Source of the DNA: Oerskovia jenensis
GTDB lineage: Bacteria > Actinomycetota > Actinomycetes > Actinomycetales > Cellulomonadaceae
Length of the DNA: 64,000 bases
Assembly (NCBI RefSeq): GCF_016907235.1
Contig: NZ_JAFBBO010000001.1
Coordinates: forward strand, 682,001 to 746,000
Direction: 5' to 3'
The notes beneath the pieces were generated by a model. That model saw only the letters and a program-made list of their open reading frames with translations, had not been told where the DNA came from and made no database searches. Both the position numbers and the translations under genes were made by a program. This document shows positions 47,800-53,974 of this stretch, in pieces. How positions within the stretch are numbered: the first letter of the stretch is position 1; each line of letters opens with the position of its first letter.

Positions 47800-48240
47800 T
47801 CAGCGAGCGGGCAGGCGGACCACCGTGACGAAGAAGTCGTCGATCTGACGCACGACGTCGATGAACCGGTCGAAGTCGACCGGCTTGGTCACGTAGGCGT
47901 TGGCGTGCAGGGAGTACGACCGCACGACGTCCTCCTCGGCCTCCGACGTCGTCAGCACGACCACGGGGATCTGGCGCAGGGCCGGGTCGGACTTGAGCTC
48001 ACCGAGCACCTCGCGACCGTCCATGCGCGGCAGGTTCAGGTCGAGCAGGATCAGGTCGGGCGTCGGGGCGTCGGCGTACTCGCCCTCCTTGCGCAGGAAG
48101 GCCATCGCGCTCACGCCGTCGCTGACCACCGAGAGGCGGTTGGTGACCTTGTGGTCCTCGAAGGCCTCACGCGTCATCAGCACGTCACCGGGGTCGTCCT
48201 CGACCAGCAGGACGTCGATCACCTTGTGCCCGTTGCTCAT
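47800..48240 (-). CDS. Single-domain response regulator (Rcp1/CheY type)
   Basis: A 146-residue receiver with no output domain. [18 protein letters not shown], phospho-acceptor Asp67 in [18 protein letters not shown] and the Lys in YVTKPVDF are conserved. The extended form ([13 protein letters not shown]) resembles the Rcp1 group that pairs with bacteriophytochrome-like kinases. It is 109 bases downstream of the kinase gene and is its likely partner. Confidence 0.9.
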
Positions 48241-48349
48241 CTCGTCCACCGTGCCGTTCCTCGTGGTCCGGCCCCGGTCCTCCGGAGCCACGCCGTGAGC
48301 CTAGTCGACGAGGGGCGTCCGGGCGCGACCTCCCGCGCCGCGCCGGGCC

Positions 48350-50077
48350 TCATGCTGCCGACGGGGCGGACGGCGCGCTCCCGACCGGGTCGTACCGGTG
48401 CGCGATCGTGAACCGGACCGTCGTGCCACCCCCCGGGGTCTGCTCGATCCAGATCCTGCCCCCGTGGTACTCGACGATCCGCTTGCACAGCGCGAGCCCG
48501 ATCCCGGTCCCCTCGTAGACGTCCTTGGGGTGCAGCCGCTGGAAGATCACGAAGACCCGTTCCGCGTACTGCGCGTCGATGCCGATCCCGTTGTCGCAGA
48601 CCGCGAACTCCCACTCGGTGCTCAGCGCCCGGACCGTGACCCGCACCTCGGGCGTCCGCTCCGGGTCGCGGAACTTGATCGCGTTCCCCACGAGGTTGAC
48701 GAAGAGCTGTTCGAGCAGCGCCTTCTCCCCGCGCACCGTGGGCAACGGGTCATGGGTCACCCGTGCGCCCGTCGACGTGATCTTCTCCTCGAGGTCGGAG
48801 AGCACCACCGCGAAGGACTTCTCGAGGTCCACGGGCACCCTCTCGGTCCCCGTCCGCCCCACCCGCGAGAAGCCCAGCAGGTCCTGGATGAGCCGCTGCA
48901 TGCGCTTGGCGCCGTCGACGGCGAACTCGATGTACTGGTCGGCACGGTCGTCGAGCTGGCCCCCGTAGCGCTTCTGCAGGAGCTGGGTGAACGACGCGAC
49001 CTTGCGCAACGGCTCCTGCAGGTCGTGCGAGGCCACGTAGGCGAACTGCTCGAGGTCACGGTTCGAACGGGCCAGCTCCTGCGCCTGGGCAGCGAGGAGC
49101 TCGTGCGAGTGCTCGACCTCCTCGTGCGACGTGCGGATCTCGGCGACCTGGCTCACGAGCTCTCGGCGCATGTGCTCGACGTCGACCGCGAGCGCCCCGA
49201 TCTCTCCCGGCGCCTGGACGGCCACGGGCTGACGGAGGTTCCCGTCGCTGACGACCCGGACCTGGTGGGCGAGCGTGGTCACGGGGTCCGTGATCCAGCG
49301 CTTGAGCACGCTCCAGAGGAACCCTCCGACGAGGATCGCGGCGACGACGAGCACCACGACCGACCCGAACAGCACCTGTGTCCAGAGCTCGAGCGAACGG
49401 ACCTTCTCCTCCCGGACCTCGCGCAGCACCGCGATGTAGTCCCCCGTCGCGGTGCGGGCGTCCTCGAAGAGTCGGGCGCCCTCGAGCCGTTCGTCGGTCG
49501 TCACGGCGTCCGGACCGTCCTGGCGCACCTTCTCGACCGCGGGGCGCGCGAACTCGGTCGACCACTTCTGGACGGCCCGCGTCGCGTGGTCGAGCGCCGT
49601 CGCCACCTGCGGCGACCGGACGATGCGCTCGGACGTGGGTTCGTCGTGGATCGCACCGCCCTCCTCGGTCGCGAGCGAACGCTCGAACGCCTCGAGGCTC
49701 AGGGCGCTGCCCGTCGCCAGATAGCCACGGACCGAGGACTCGGCGTCGACCAGGGTCACGTACGCGCTGTCGGCCTGCGTGACGGCGGTGAAGTACGGGT
49801 TGGTGACCTCGTCCTGGAAGCGCACCACGTTCACGAGCGCCACGACGGAGACGCAGACCACGACGAGGAGGATCGCGGCGGCGAGCACCAGGAGCCCGCC
49901 GAGCCGGCGCCGCAGCGAAGGACCCGAGGGAGGTTCGGTGGAAGGTGCCCCGTCGCCCGCCCCGGGGTCGCCGCCCCCCGAGGGCTCGTCGGGGACCGGG
50001 TCGCCGCCCGCCGAGGGATCGTCGTCGGGCGCGGGCTCGGGCACGCCACCCGGAGCGGCCGAGGAGAGCCCCGTCAC
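48350..50077 (-). CDS. Membrane sensor histidine kinase
   Basis: A 575-residue kinase. Residues 1-55 are acidic and Pro/Gly-rich; transmembrane helix ~61-86; a ~145-residue helical extracytoplasmic CHASE3-like sensor (SSVRGYLATG, typical of CHASE3); second helix ~236-258; HAMP; coiled coil; HisKA with SHDLQEPLRKV (His351); HATPase with NLVGNAIKFRDPE and CDNGIGIDAQYAERVF. GTG overlaps the stop of the broken receiver-phosphatase gene as GTGA, so loss of that frame may affect its translation. Confidence 0.92.
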   Translation of the reverse strand: MTGLSSAAPGGVPEPAPDDDPSAGGDPVPDEPSGGGDPGAGDGAPSTEPPSGPSLRRRLGGLLVLAAAILLVVVCVSVVALVNVVRFQDEVTNPYFTAVTQADSAYVTLVDAESSVRGYLATGSALSLEAFERSLATEEGGAIHDEPTSERIVRSPQVATALDHATRAVQKWSTEFARPAVEKVRQDGPDAVTTDERLEGARLFEDARTATGDYIAVLREVREEKVRSLELWTQVLFGSVVVLVVAAILVGGFLWSVLKRWITDPVTTLAHQVRVVSDGNLRQPVAVQAPGEIGALAVDVEHMRRELVSQVAEIRTSHEEVEHSHELLAAQAQELARSNRDLEQFAYVASHDLQEPLRKVASFTQLLQKRYGGQLDDRADQYIEFAVDGAKRMQRLIQDLLGFSRVGRTGTERVPVDLEKSFAVVLSDLEEKITSTGARVTHDPLPTVRGEKALLEQLFVNLVGNAIKFRDPERTPEVRVTVRALSTEWEFAVCDNGIGIDAQYAERVFVIFQRLHPKDVYEGTGIGLALCKRIVEYHGGRIWIEQTPGGGTTVRFTIAHRYDPVGSAPSAPSAA

Positions 50078-51419
50078 TGCGACCACTCGTCGGAGTCCGC
50101 GAGCGTCGCGGTGCGTTCGCCGCGGGCGTCCTGGTCCGGGCCGCCCCACCCGATCACGAGCACCGCCGCGTCGTCCGCCAGAGGCCCGCCGTGCAGGGCG
50201 CGCACCCGACGGAAGAGCCGCTCGACGAGCCCCTCCCCGCCGTGCGCGAGCTCGGTGTCGACGGCCGCGACGAGTCCTCGGACGCCGAGGCGTTCTCGCC
50301 GACCGGGCGTCCCCGCGGGGACGGGTGCGTCGGTGCCCGCGGCGGACCGGGTGTCCTCGGCGAGCGTCGCCTCGATCAGACCGTCGGTGTAGAGCATGAG
50401 CGCCCAGGGGGCGTCGAGCGCCACGCGTTCGGCACGCCACCCGCCCGTGACGGGGATGCCCAGCGCCCGGCCGCGCGAGGTCGTCGGGAGCTCGGTGCAC
50501 GAGTCCTGCAGGAGCAGCGGCGACATGTGTCCCGCGAGGAAGAGGTCCACGGCCGCCCGGTCCGGCGAGATCACGACCTGGCAGAGGGTCACGAAGACCT
50601 CGGGCCGGGCACGCTCGGGGACCAGGACGCGTTCGACGAGAGGGAGGATCTCGGCGGGGTCGACGTCCGACAGGACGAGGGTGCGCCACGCGGTGCGCAG
50701 GGTCGCGCCGAGGGCGGCCTCGTCCGGCCCGTGACCCGCGACGTCACCGATCAGGCACAGGACGCTCCCGTCGGGACGCTCGACGGCGTCGTAGAAGTCT
50801 CCGCCCAGGAGCCCGTTGCCCCCAGGGATGTAGCCCACCATCACGGCGATCGTCTCGTCGGTCACGAGCGGCTTGGGCAGCAGGGCGCGCTCGAGGCGGG
50901 CGGTCTCGGCGGCGCGCACCTCGCTGCGGTAGAGGGCTCGCTGCTGCTCCTTGGAGCGACGGCGCTGGACGGAGTAGCGGACAGAACGCCCCAGCAGATC
51001 GCCGTCGACCTCGCCCTTGACCAGGTAGTCGTCGGCGCCCCCTTGACCAGGTAGTCGTCGGCGCCCGCCGCGACGGCCTGGACCCCGAGGTCGATCCCGG
51101 TGTGTCCGGTGAGCACGACGAGCGCGGGCGGGTCCGGGCGGGACTGGAGCCGCTCGACGGCGGACAGTCCCACCGCGTCCGGGAGACCGAGGTCGAGCAG
51201 GACGCAGTGCACGTCGTGCAGCCGCAGCATCTCGAGGGCCACGTCGAGGCTCCTCGCCCGGTGCAGCTCGACCTTGACCCGCGCGTCGTCGAGGAGCTCC
51301 TCGACGAGGATCGCGTCCCCGTCGTCGTCCTCGACGAGCAGGACACGCAGGAGGTCCTCCGGGGACAGCACCCCCGGAGCCCCATCTTCCGGCCGGGGCG
51401 ACAAGGGATCAGTCACCAC
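50074..51419 (-). pseudogene. Receiver-PPM (SpoIIE/RsbU) phosphatase gene broken by a 26-base tandem duplication
   Basis: The upstream part encodes a receiver (RVLLVEDDDGDAILVEEL, LLDLGLPDAVG, GADDYLVKG). The downstream frame encodes a PPM serine phosphatase (PGGNGLLGGDFYDAV, IGDVAGHGPDEAALGA, LFLAGHMSPLL, MLYTDGLIEA). The two are in different frames because a 26-base unit is repeated at 51014-51065. With one copy removed, translation runs from GADDYLVKG straight into EVDGDLLGRSVRYS, and the gene becomes 1320 bases (439 residues). GTG 51419 has GGAGG eight bases upstream. In the repeated state only a truncated receiver is expected. A sequencing or assembly error is possible. Confidence 0.85.
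51014..51065. repeat. 26-base exact tandem duplication
   Basis: The unit begins CCCTTGACCAGG and ends GGCGCC; copies are 51014-51039 and 51040-51065. 26 is not a multiple of three, so it shifts the reading frame of the enclosing gene. Confidence 0.97.
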
Positions 51420-51643
51420 GACGCGCGCCTCCGACAGTCGCCATGGTTCCCGATCGTAGAGGACGCGGGCGCCTCGTGCTGGGGAGCGCCGTCCGCGCCG
51501 CCCCGGTCCGGGCGACGCGGAGGGAGCGTGTCCACCCACGAGGCCGATGGCGCTCGGTCCGTGCGGGATCAGCAATAATGGACGGCTGCGTCGCGGGGGT
51601 GTGCGAGCGGACCGCGAAGGACCAGACGACAGGACGGAACAGC
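51420..51643. promoter_or_regulatory. Divergent promoter region, receiver-phosphatase / HelD
   Basis: 224 GC-rich bases. AATAAT at 51574-51579 is a strong -10 candidate for the HelD gene; no good -35 is visible. Confidence 0.45.
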
Positions 51644-53974
51644 GTGCGCGAGACGAGCGACCGGACGAGCGGGGCACCGACCACCGGTGAGCAGGTCCGG
51701 CCGGAGCGGGACGCCCCGACGACGGACCGCCGGCACGAGATCGGCAGGGAACAGGTCGTCGTCGACTCGCTCTACGCCCGTCTCGACGAGCTGCGCGCCT
51801 CGACCCGTTCGCGGCTCGCGGGCGTGCGCAGGTCGGGACCCTCGGGGTCTCCGCAGAACCGCAGCGAGCGCGACGCCTTCGCGACCCTCTACGAGGACCG
51901 GCTCGCCCAGCTCGAGGCGGTCGAGGACCGGCTCGCGTTCGGTCGGCTCGACCTGGACGACGGCGCGACCCGGTACGTCGGGCGCATCGGTCTGTCCGAC
52001 GAGGAGCACACGTCGATCCTCACCGACTGGCGCGCACCCGCCGCGCAGTCGTTCTACCGCGCGACCGCGGCACACCCCGACGGGGTCCGTCGCCGTCGCC
52101 ACCTCGTGACCAGGGGCCGCGCGGTCACGGGCGTCGAGGACGAGGTCCTCGACCTCTCCTCGGGCGCCGCGGCCGACTCGAACCTCTCGGGAGAGGGTGC
52201 GCTGCTCGCGGCGATGGCCGCCGGGCGCACGAGCCGCATGGGCGACATCGTCGCCACGATCCAGGCCGAGCAGGACGCGATCATCCGCTCCGAGCTCGCC
52301 GGGGCGCTCGTGGTCCAGGGTGGGCCCGGGACGGGCAAGACGGCCGTGGCGCTGCACCGCGCCGCCTACCTGCTGTACGCGCACCGGCGACTGCTCGAAC
52401 GCTCGGGCGTGCTGCTCGTCGGACCGAGCCTGTCCTTCCTGCACTACATCGACCAGGTCCTGCCCTCGCTCGGTGAGACCGGTGTCGTGAGCACGACCAT
52501 CTCCGAGCTCCTCCCGGGCCTCGTCGCCGACGGCGAGGAGGCCCCCGAGGTCGCCCGGATCAAGGGGCGCGCGTCGTGGGCCAAGGTCGTGCAGCGCGCG
52601 GTCCGCGCGCGCCAGCGCGTGCCTGCCGCGGACCAGCACCTGCGCATCGACGGGCACGACCTCGTGATCCGCCGCTCCGACGTGCGCGACGCGATCGCCA
52701 AGGCGCACCGCACGCACAAGCCGCACAACCTCGCGCGCGTCCCGTTCGTGCGCGAGATGCTGGGTCGGCTCGCGGACCAGTACCTGGCCGAGCTCGGCGG
52801 GCCGGTCGCGCCCGAGGAGCGGGCCGAGGTGGTCGACGACCTGCGGCGACAGCGCGAGATCAGGATCGCGCTCAACCTGGCGTGGATGCCCCTGACCCCC
52901 GAGCGCCTCATCGAGGACCTGTTCGTCAAGCCGCACCGCCTCGCCGAGGCCGCGCCCGACATGTCGCGTGCGGACCGTGCGGCGCTGGTGCGCCCCAAGG
53001 GCGCCCCGTGGACCCCCGCGGACGTTCCCCTCCTCGACGAGGCCGCCGAGCTCCTGGGCGAGGACGACCAGGCCGCCCGCGCCCAGGCCAAGGCCGAGGT
53101 TGCCGAGCGGGCGGCCAGCCTCGACTACGCACGCCAGGTCCTCGAGTCGTCCGGTGCCGGCGGCGGGATCGTCGGCGCGGAGATCCTCGCCGACCGGTTC
53201 GCCGGCGGCGGGTCCCGGCTGACCACGGCCGAGCGCGCGGCCCAGGATCGTACGTGGACCTACGCGCACGTCGTGGTCGACGAGGCGCAGGAGCTGTCCG
53301 CGATGGCATGGCGGGCCCTGGTGCGACGCTGCCCCACGCGGTCCATGACTATCGTCGGCGACGTCGCCCAGACGTCCTCGCTCGCGGGAGCCCGGTCGTG
53401 GGCGAGCATGCTCGATCCGCTGCTGCGCGGCTCGTGGCGCCTCGCGACCCTCACGGTCAACTACCGCACGCCCACGCAGATCGCGGACACCGCCCAGCGG
53501 TTCGCTGCGGCCCATCGGCTCCCGACGTCGTCGCTCACCTCGGCGCGCGACATCCCGGGAGCACTCGTCCTGGCACCGGTCGCGACGGGCGAGGACCTTC
53601 TGGACGAGGTGTCGGTCCGCGTCCGGTCGGCCCTCGCGGAGTTCGTGGGACCCGACGGCGCGGGCCGGGTGGCGGTCGTCGCACCTGCCGACCACGTCGT
53701 GGGCGTGCGCGACCGCCTGACCCGCGACCACGCCGTCGCCCCGTTGCTGACGGGGCCCGCGGCAGAGGTCGAGGGTGCCCTGGGTGCCGCGCTCACGGTC
53801 CTGAGCCCGACGCAGGCCAAGGGCCTCGAGTTCGACGCGGTCGTCCTCCTGGAGCCCGCGGAGATCCTTGCCGGCACGTCGGGAGCCTCCGAGCTCTACG
53901 TCGCCATGACCCGCCCGACGCAACGGCTCGTCGTCGTGCACGCCCGCCCCCTCCCCCGAGGCTTCACCGACTGA
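51644..53974 (+). CDS. HelD-like UvrD-family RNA polymerase-recycling helicase
   Basis: A 776-residue superfamily 1 NTPase. The N-terminal coiled region (REQVVVDSLYARLDELR), YVGRIGLSDEE, DWRAPAAQSFYRA, Walker A VQGGPGTGKTAVALHR (~224-239), VVDEAQELSAMAWRAL, GDVAQTS and VNYRTPTQI, and ELYVAMTRPTQRLVVVH are the HelD pattern. Family members remove RNA polymerase from DNA; some (HelR) give rifamycin tolerance. I start at GTG 51644; an ATG at 51578 lies on the AATAAT -10 and is unlikely. Confidence 0.9.
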   Translation: MRETSDRTSGAPTTGEQVRPERDAPTTDRRHEIGREQVVVDSLYARLDELRASTRSRLAGVRRSGPSGSPQNRSERDAFATLYEDRLAQLEAVEDRLAFGRLDLDDGATRYVGRIGLSDEEHTSILTDWRAPAAQSFYRATAAHPDGVRRRRHLVTRGRAVTGVEDEVLDLSSGAAADSNLSGEGALLAAMAAGRTSRMGDIVATIQAEQDAIIRSELAGALVVQGGPGTGKTAVALHRAAYLLYAHRRLLERSGVLLVGPSLSFLHYIDQVLPSLGETGVVSTTISELLPGLVADGEEAPEVARIKGRASWAKVVQRAVRARQRVPAADQHLRIDGHDLVIRRSDVRDAIAKAHRTHKPHNLARVPFVREMLGRLADQYLAELGGPVAPEERAEVVDDLRRQREIRIALNLAWMPLTPERLIEDLFVKPHRLAEAAPDMSRADRAALVRPKGAPWTPADVPLLDEAAELLGEDDQAARAQAKAEVAERAASLDYARQVLESSGAGGGIVGAEILADRFAGGGSRLTTAERAAQDRTWTYAHVVVDEAQELSAMAWRALVRRCPTRSMTIVGDVAQTSSLAGARSWASMLDPLLRGSWRLATLTVNYRTPTQIADTAQRFAAAHRLPTSSLTSARDIPGALVLAPVATGEDLLDEVSVRVRSALAEFVGPDGAGRVAVVAPADHVVGVRDRLTRDHAVAPLLTGPAAEVEGALGAALTVLSPTQAKGLEFDAVVLLEPAEILAGTSGASELYVAMTRPTQRLVVVHARPLPRGFTD

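Follow-up and report, generated by a model that had tools for sequence, protein, structure and literature searches.

A private 26-bp tandem duplication that probably broke a conserved receiver-phosphatase gene in Oerskovia jenensis

Why are a receiver and a phosphatase, which share one reading frame in almost all relatives, found in two frames in Oerskovia jenensis, and can the exact repeat that lies between them act as a switch? The DNA analysed here, referred to as the window, is a stretch of 64,000 nucleotides (contig NZ_JAFBBO010000001.1, positions 682,001 to 746,000), and coordinates without a locus label are positions in it. An earlier note on this DNA described a receiver-PPM phosphatase gene interrupted by an exact 26-base in-line duplication. 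It suggested that the repeat may be a reversible on/off switch and gave recent mutation or assembly error as the alternative. The identity of the gene was borne out, as Pfam recognizes Response_reg and SpoIIE on the two pieces. The parts of the locus and its surroundings are the following:

47800..48291, minus strand: single-domain response regulator, downstream of the kinase (Pfam Response_reg, 9.1e-21)
48350..50077, minus strand: histidine kinase, CHASE3-HAMP-HisKA-HATPase_c (Pfam, with a query slightly longer than this interval; open reading frame; frame)
50074..50077, minus strand: GTGA in which the phosphatase stop overlaps the histidine kinase start (frame read)
50074..50919, minus strand: SpoIIE/PPM phosphatase frame, from its first start to its stop (Pfam SpoIIE, 5.4e-32; start scan)
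50862..50865, minus strand: GTGA shared by the TGA that ends the shifted receiver frame and a GTG read in the phosphatase frame (frame read)
50862..51419, minus strand: receiver frame as it stands, 185 residues (Pfam Response_reg, 3.3e-17; frame read; alignment)
51014..51039, minus strand: 26-bp unit, phosphatase-proximal copy (100% identity to the second copy; Tandem Repeats Finder)
51040..51065, minus strand: 26-bp unit, receiver-proximal copy, with GADDYLVKG in the receiver frame (repeat search; frame read)
51443..53974, plus strand: UvrD/AAA-type helicase-like gene, divergent, upstream and outside the system (Pfam)

The duplication at 51014-51065 was confirmed by a repeat search and by Tandem Repeats Finder. 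The two copies are 100% identical, and the corresponding Tandem Repeats Finder row (51014-51066, 100% match) has the top score among the 15 rows in the window. The probability that 26 adjacent bases are identical by chance should be negligible. As its length leaves a remainder of 2 on division by 3, the extra unit puts the SpoIIE/PPM phosphatase in a different frame from the receiver. The length calculation in the earlier note is also correct: 51419 to 50077 spans 1343 bases, two more than a multiple of three, and without one 26-base copy the interval comprises exactly 439 codons. The receiver frame begins with GTG at 51419, meets GADDYLVKG in the first copy and is lost in the second. The shifted frame ends at the TGA at 50864-50862, inside the phosphatase region. 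The receiver product is intact as far as the conserved lysine in DYLVK, after which it continues as a shifted tail, and the remaining receiver and the linker are gone. In receivers, DYLVK is located at the end of the last strand, and the missing end is the last helix. Consequently, a frameshift just past DYLVK deprives the receiver product of this helix and of the linker. In the phosphatase frame, a stop at 51411 is followed by open sequence up to the end at 50074; the first ATG, GTG or TTG in this frame is GTG 50919, which falls within the region serving as the linker in relatives. The frames of the kinase and single-domain regulator genes located downstream are open.

The locus was found in seven of the seven genomes of the genus that were examined, this one included. 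In the other six, the match to a 181-base probe, all or nearly all of which was spanned, is 153-155 bases long, i.e., 26 fewer than the query stretch covered, and the proteins have 435-441 residues with analyst-chosen starts. When up to five mismatches were allowed, exactly one copy of the 26-bp unit was present in 23 of 26 relatives' loci (L005-L030). The unit was not matched at this threshold in L016, L023 and L029; L016 and L029 have one copy according to protein alignment, and L023 (genome G015) shows a profile match in one open frame. Two copies were found only in the window's own locus among the loci scanned. A repeat that is present or varies in copy number in relatives was seen neither in the six genus genomes nor in the 23 loci with the unit. 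Twenty-five relatives read as one receiver-phosphatase frame of 400-463 residues, with starts set by a simple rule.

A profile search across the family gave matches at E <= 1e-60 in 160 of 200 genomes, and 40 had no match. Receiver and phosphatase are in one frame in 158 of the 160 genomes with the gene. The outcome that, according to the earlier note, would have refuted its reading, namely domains encoded by separate genes in every relative, is therefore ruled out. These 158 one-frame matches run from profile position 26 or lower, in the receiver, to position 410 or higher; the match of genome G097 begins at position 70, and its receiver was read separately. The ten genomes ranking lowest by E-value among the 160 were looked at individually, as were G097 and the present genome (G000 in the locus labels). 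Many family matches include one or two TGAs and end near position 412-428, and we read these TGAs as the normal stop of a shorter protein. Open frames were read directly in the 25 relatives, in 30 loci of the family search, in L023 and in ten loci (L222, L224-L232). In L023 and L228-L232, the frame is open, even though the receiver motif search gave no match there. The gene of the present genome matches the family profile in two pieces, 15-129 and 119-432. The other broken gene in the family belongs to G098 (L233/L234) and is split near profile positions 191-193, within the phosphatase. Its frame change is independent of the 26-bp duplication and lies elsewhere, and it is possibly a sequencing error, since that genome is 87% complete. 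The kinase motif was detected in 25 of 26 relatives' loci, with no motif match in L023. Translational coupling to the downstream histidine kinase, also suggested previously, is plausible and conserved: the stop overlaps the kinase-frame start in 25 of 25 relatives read, as GTGA or ATGA in 24 and as TGATG in L016.

The intact gene is RsfR/RsbY-like and encodes a receiver, a helical linker and a PPM phosphatase, followed by a CHASE3 histidine kinase. In the present genome, the receiver has its phospho-acceptor Asp (Response_reg match, with LLDLGLPD kept in the alignment), the position of which we take from general knowledge of receivers. The CHASE3 kinase, recognized by Pfam, adjoins the receiver-phosphatase gene. 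A C-terminal SpoIIE/PP2C domain in the same protein as the receiver is missing here, as the frame is broken. The Mycobacterium smegmatis RsfR/RsfS system (MSMEG_6131/6130) has a similar layout, with a receiver-PP2C gene, a CHASE3 kinase and a further receiver gene in a putative operon (PMC10950880). In that system, phosphorylation by the kinase makes RsfR less active as a phosphatase of the anti-SigF antagonist RsfB (PMC10950880). There are also differences. The third gene encodes a single-domain receiver here, whereas that of the rsfR-rsfS operon encodes a receiver-HTH protein (PMC10950880). No rsfB-rsbW pair adjoins the present locus, and its divergent neighbour is helicase-like. Unlike M. 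smegmatis RsfR, the copy described here is frame-broken.

Among solved structures, the best sequence match is 3eq2 (E 5.5e-24, covering receiver and phosphatase), which belongs to RssB of Pseudomonas aeruginosa (PDB 3eq2/3f7a). One study names 3eq2 as this protein, built of a receiver, a helical linker and a PPM domain (PMC12143880). According to this study, the phosphatase domains of P. aeruginosa RssB and of RsbU are brought together by helical linkers that cross each other (PMC12143880). P. aeruginosa HsbR may likewise be one of the closest known systems. The gene is not an RssB orthologue by the NCBIfam test, because an intact relative scores 54.5 against a cut-off of 700 bits. Seven other SpoIIE-type open frames occur in the present genome (nine matches in total, with one frame matched twice). 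The genome also has 13 matches to STAS and 17 to HATPase_c_2, 12 of the latter above the cut-off, and neither of these two domains occurs at this locus. Some of the HATPase_c_2 matches may be ordinary kinases. Since partner-switching parts are present elsewhere in the genome, some redundancy is possible.

The age of the duplication can be estimated from the two halves of the gene. The dN/dS of the receiver is 0.06-0.14 in comparison with three intact relatives and 0.10-0.12 among those relatives, and the values for the phosphatase are 0.09-0.11 and 0.08-0.11, respectively. Codon changes private to this genome comprise four synonymous and two non-synonymous ones in the receiver, which are too few to exclude slight relaxation, and 21 synonymous and two non-synonymous ones in the phosphatase. 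A further stop or frame break was sought in both halves, and none was seen. Because both halves are about as constrained as in intact relatives and no further lesion was seen, the duplication is either recent or an artefact. Judged from these sequences, the split from the relatives would long predate the duplication, unless the latter is not real.

We consider it probable (about 0.6) that a private, recent short tandem duplication broke an otherwise conserved RsfR/RsbY-like phosphatase gene. Of the readings in the earlier note, its alternative of recent mutation or assembly error is the better fit. From its interpretation as a whole, the receiver-PPM gene, the frame break and the plausible coupling are retained, and the reversible switch is not. 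The spontaneous 26-bp duplication would have arisen recently in one lineage. The ends of the unit have one base in common. With this single shared base, and with no repeat of the unit in one-copy relatives, the duplication was probably formed by a rare slip or by end-joining. Once the pair exists, contraction to a single copy should happen more readily than the duplication did, and it could in principle revert the allele. Translation would follow the receiver to DYLVK and then proceed in the wrong frame until the stop inside the phosphatase. The predicted product would have no receiver end, no helical linker and no phosphatase. Translation of the downstream kinase and regulator may fall; the expression of the kinase may drop because few ribosomes would reach the coupled stop/start at 50074-50077. 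The allele is most likely a simple loss of function. Nevertheless, the term inactivating should be used with some reserve, because GTG 50919 or GTG 50865 might still yield a free phosphatase.

As it stands, this is an ordinary-looking private frame-breaking duplication. If it is real and heritable, it represents a natural knock-out (or a deregulated allele) of a sensor phosphatase conserved in the family, and the genome would be unsuitable as a reference copy of the receiver-phosphatase gene.

An error of assembly or consensus, with a genome that truly has one copy, is the first competing explanation to be weighed, and we regard it as unlikely. It would agree with the one copy in the relatives examined, and the lack of decay in either half fits it equally well; the sequence is also, by eye, of high G+C. 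On the other hand, the assembly consists of 1 contig of 4,453,691 bases and is 99.92% complete and 0.17% contaminated. A special case, a circularisation join at 733 kb, was set aside as unlikely because the dnaA match is at 2,521,577 and the contig is not rotated there. The frequency of frame changes elsewhere also speaks against an error. When proteins of relatives were compared with sampled DNA of this genome in 177 tests (55 with proteins from G005, 12 from G001, 63 from G003 and 47 from G006; one gene can be tested repeatedly), four frame changes were flagged: the window gene and three located, by eye, before likely gene starts, one being a one-base difference in a C run. The corresponding numbers for the other genomes are 6 of 125 tests in G005, 1 of 11 in G001, 0 of 56 in G003 and 0 of 47 in G006. 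In total, the 11 protein-versus-sample comparisons yielded 11 flags (four in the present genome, six in G005 and one in G001), which are in excess in the two single-contig genomes. Eight of the ten flags outside the window were aligned (nine alignments; L184 versus L212 and L289 versus L217 were left unaligned), and seven are, by eye, outside genes or before gene starts; the eighth (L185 versus L211) includes a 152-bp length difference in a HEAT-repeat gene. On these counts and alignments, a poor assembly with many frame errors was rejected. The genes of this genome appear to have fair base quality, and a local error at 51014-51065 may still have occurred. Additionally, the many-contig genomes G001, G003 and G006 contain exact tandem arrays whose units, 17-65 bp long, are not multiples of three, which counts against this explanation.

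A contingency switch, in which slippage alters the copy number and turns the phosphatase on or off within a population, is improbable. The pair does lie within an open reading frame and has a unit that is not a multiple of three (26 bp x 2), as is looked for in phase-variable loci, and adjacent exact repeats can contract precisely. As an exact, head-to-tail and frame-breaking duplication with no counterpart in relatives, it also has the form of the duplications studied by Waite et al. (2001, 2003); cap3A was reportedly the subject of the 2001 paper. Reversible duplications within capsule genes have been reported for pneumococcus (PMC4022640, PMC4243769). These papers describe capsule phase variants (cap3A, cap8E, tts) in which, like here, sequence was spontaneously duplicated within a gene, reversibly in those cases (PMC4022640, PMC4243769). 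For short capsule-gene insertions, the longest of nine bases, one of them gives reversion of about 1e-5 or less, citing Waite et al. (PMC4022640). However, isolates and reversion have been reported for the pneumococcal variants, whereas the present case comprises one genome, and its target is a signalling enzyme.

Against a switch, the repeat was found in no relative examined, and for this reason an evolved switch with a conserved repeat was rejected. With a repeat-free site in relatives and one base shared at the ends of the unit, nothing appears to be kept there for slippage, and the step from one to two copies would be rare. The folding of single-stranded DNA at the site is unremarkable (z -1.4 and 0.0). 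The reversible on/off switch put forward in the earlier note is therefore not supported, as the repeat is confined to one genome and the relatives have none at the site. If reads were to show both copy numbers, a high-G+C actinobacterium would provide a case in which a signalling enzyme is switched by duplication.

A functional fission has an equally poor chance. Ribosomes would stop at 50862 and restart at GTG 50865, which would give a free phosphatase of 263 residues and leave the kinase coupled. In a variant of this explanation, some ribosomes would slip by -1 on the five Gs where the two copies meet and would make a full-length protein carrying a short repeated insertion. In its arrangement, the GTGA at 50865-50862 is identical to the native junction between phosphatase and kinase, and the stretch from GTG 50865 retains the whole SpoIIE match (112 bits versus 114 for an intact relative). 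Moreover, -1 is the direction needed to restore the frame, as worked out from the frames. However, the overlap is unremarkable: any TGA after A, G or T yields one in this relative frame, so that the GTGA at 50862..50865 likely arose by chance. Inspection by eye showed neither a good ribosome-binding sequence in the 20 bases upstream of either GTG nor a classical slippery heptamer. With a restart at GTG 50919, the phosphatase would retain just the end of the linker, and with one at GTG 50865 even less. The linker, which drives phosphatase dimerisation in related proteins (PMC12143880), would be mostly missing. Still less probable is a combination of the two ideas, in which the duplication would yield two translationally coupled products: a receiver, and a separate phosphatase that is translated from the GTGA overlap and escapes control by the receiver. 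Because the repeat can contract, it is conceivable that cells would switch reversibly between a kinase-controlled and an uncontrolled phosphatase and not between on and off.

The preferred reading, a recent private duplication, can be set against the background of tandem repeats in the genus. Exact tandem repeats with a period of 12-400 gave 21 rows in 464 kb of the present genome (the window and 20 x 20 kb), where some arrays are given by more than one row, and 16 rows in 400 kb of the sister genome G005. In G005, an exact 41-bp pair (L215:4037-4118), which is also not a multiple of three, interrupts a BNR/sialidase-like frame. At this site, the remaining six genomes of the genus match the 401-base probe with 360-363 bases (38-41 shorter). 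For most of the exact arrays of 17-65 bp units in G001, G003 and G006, the coding signal is unclear on one side. Taken with the G005 pair, they indicate that events of this kind recur in the genus. The 26-bp pair came under study because it is present in the window. Other exact repeats with a period of at least 20 that is not a multiple of three were found neither in an evenly spaced 400-kb sample of the present genome nor in the G025 sample. The phase test based on third-position G+C is blunt; it rated the window's own duplication as unclear and could not distinguish a frame break from neighbouring genes, and only the repeat counts were used.

Several observations were made alongside. The present genome includes exact tracts with short units: 8 bp x 6.6 at L196:2514-2566, 7 bp x 9.6 at L185:15325-15391 and 8 bp x 4.6 at L186:10407-10443. 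By type, these are better candidates for variation by slippage than the 26-bp pair. In the same genome, a HEAT-repeat gene (L185:3514-5478) has about 152 bp fewer than its counterpart in G005 (L211:15646-16473), the only genome with which it was compared; this 152-bp difference shifts the frame and runs the gene into the next one. A draft contig of G006 (L308:5552-5656) has 56 G, 10 bases and then 39 C, possibly as an assembly artefact. Finally, an element of 60-75 bp (e.g., L192:7977-8048 in the present genome) occurs in many places and in either orientation in the genomes of the genus; it appeared as numerous secondary matches and is perhaps a dispersed palindromic repeat.
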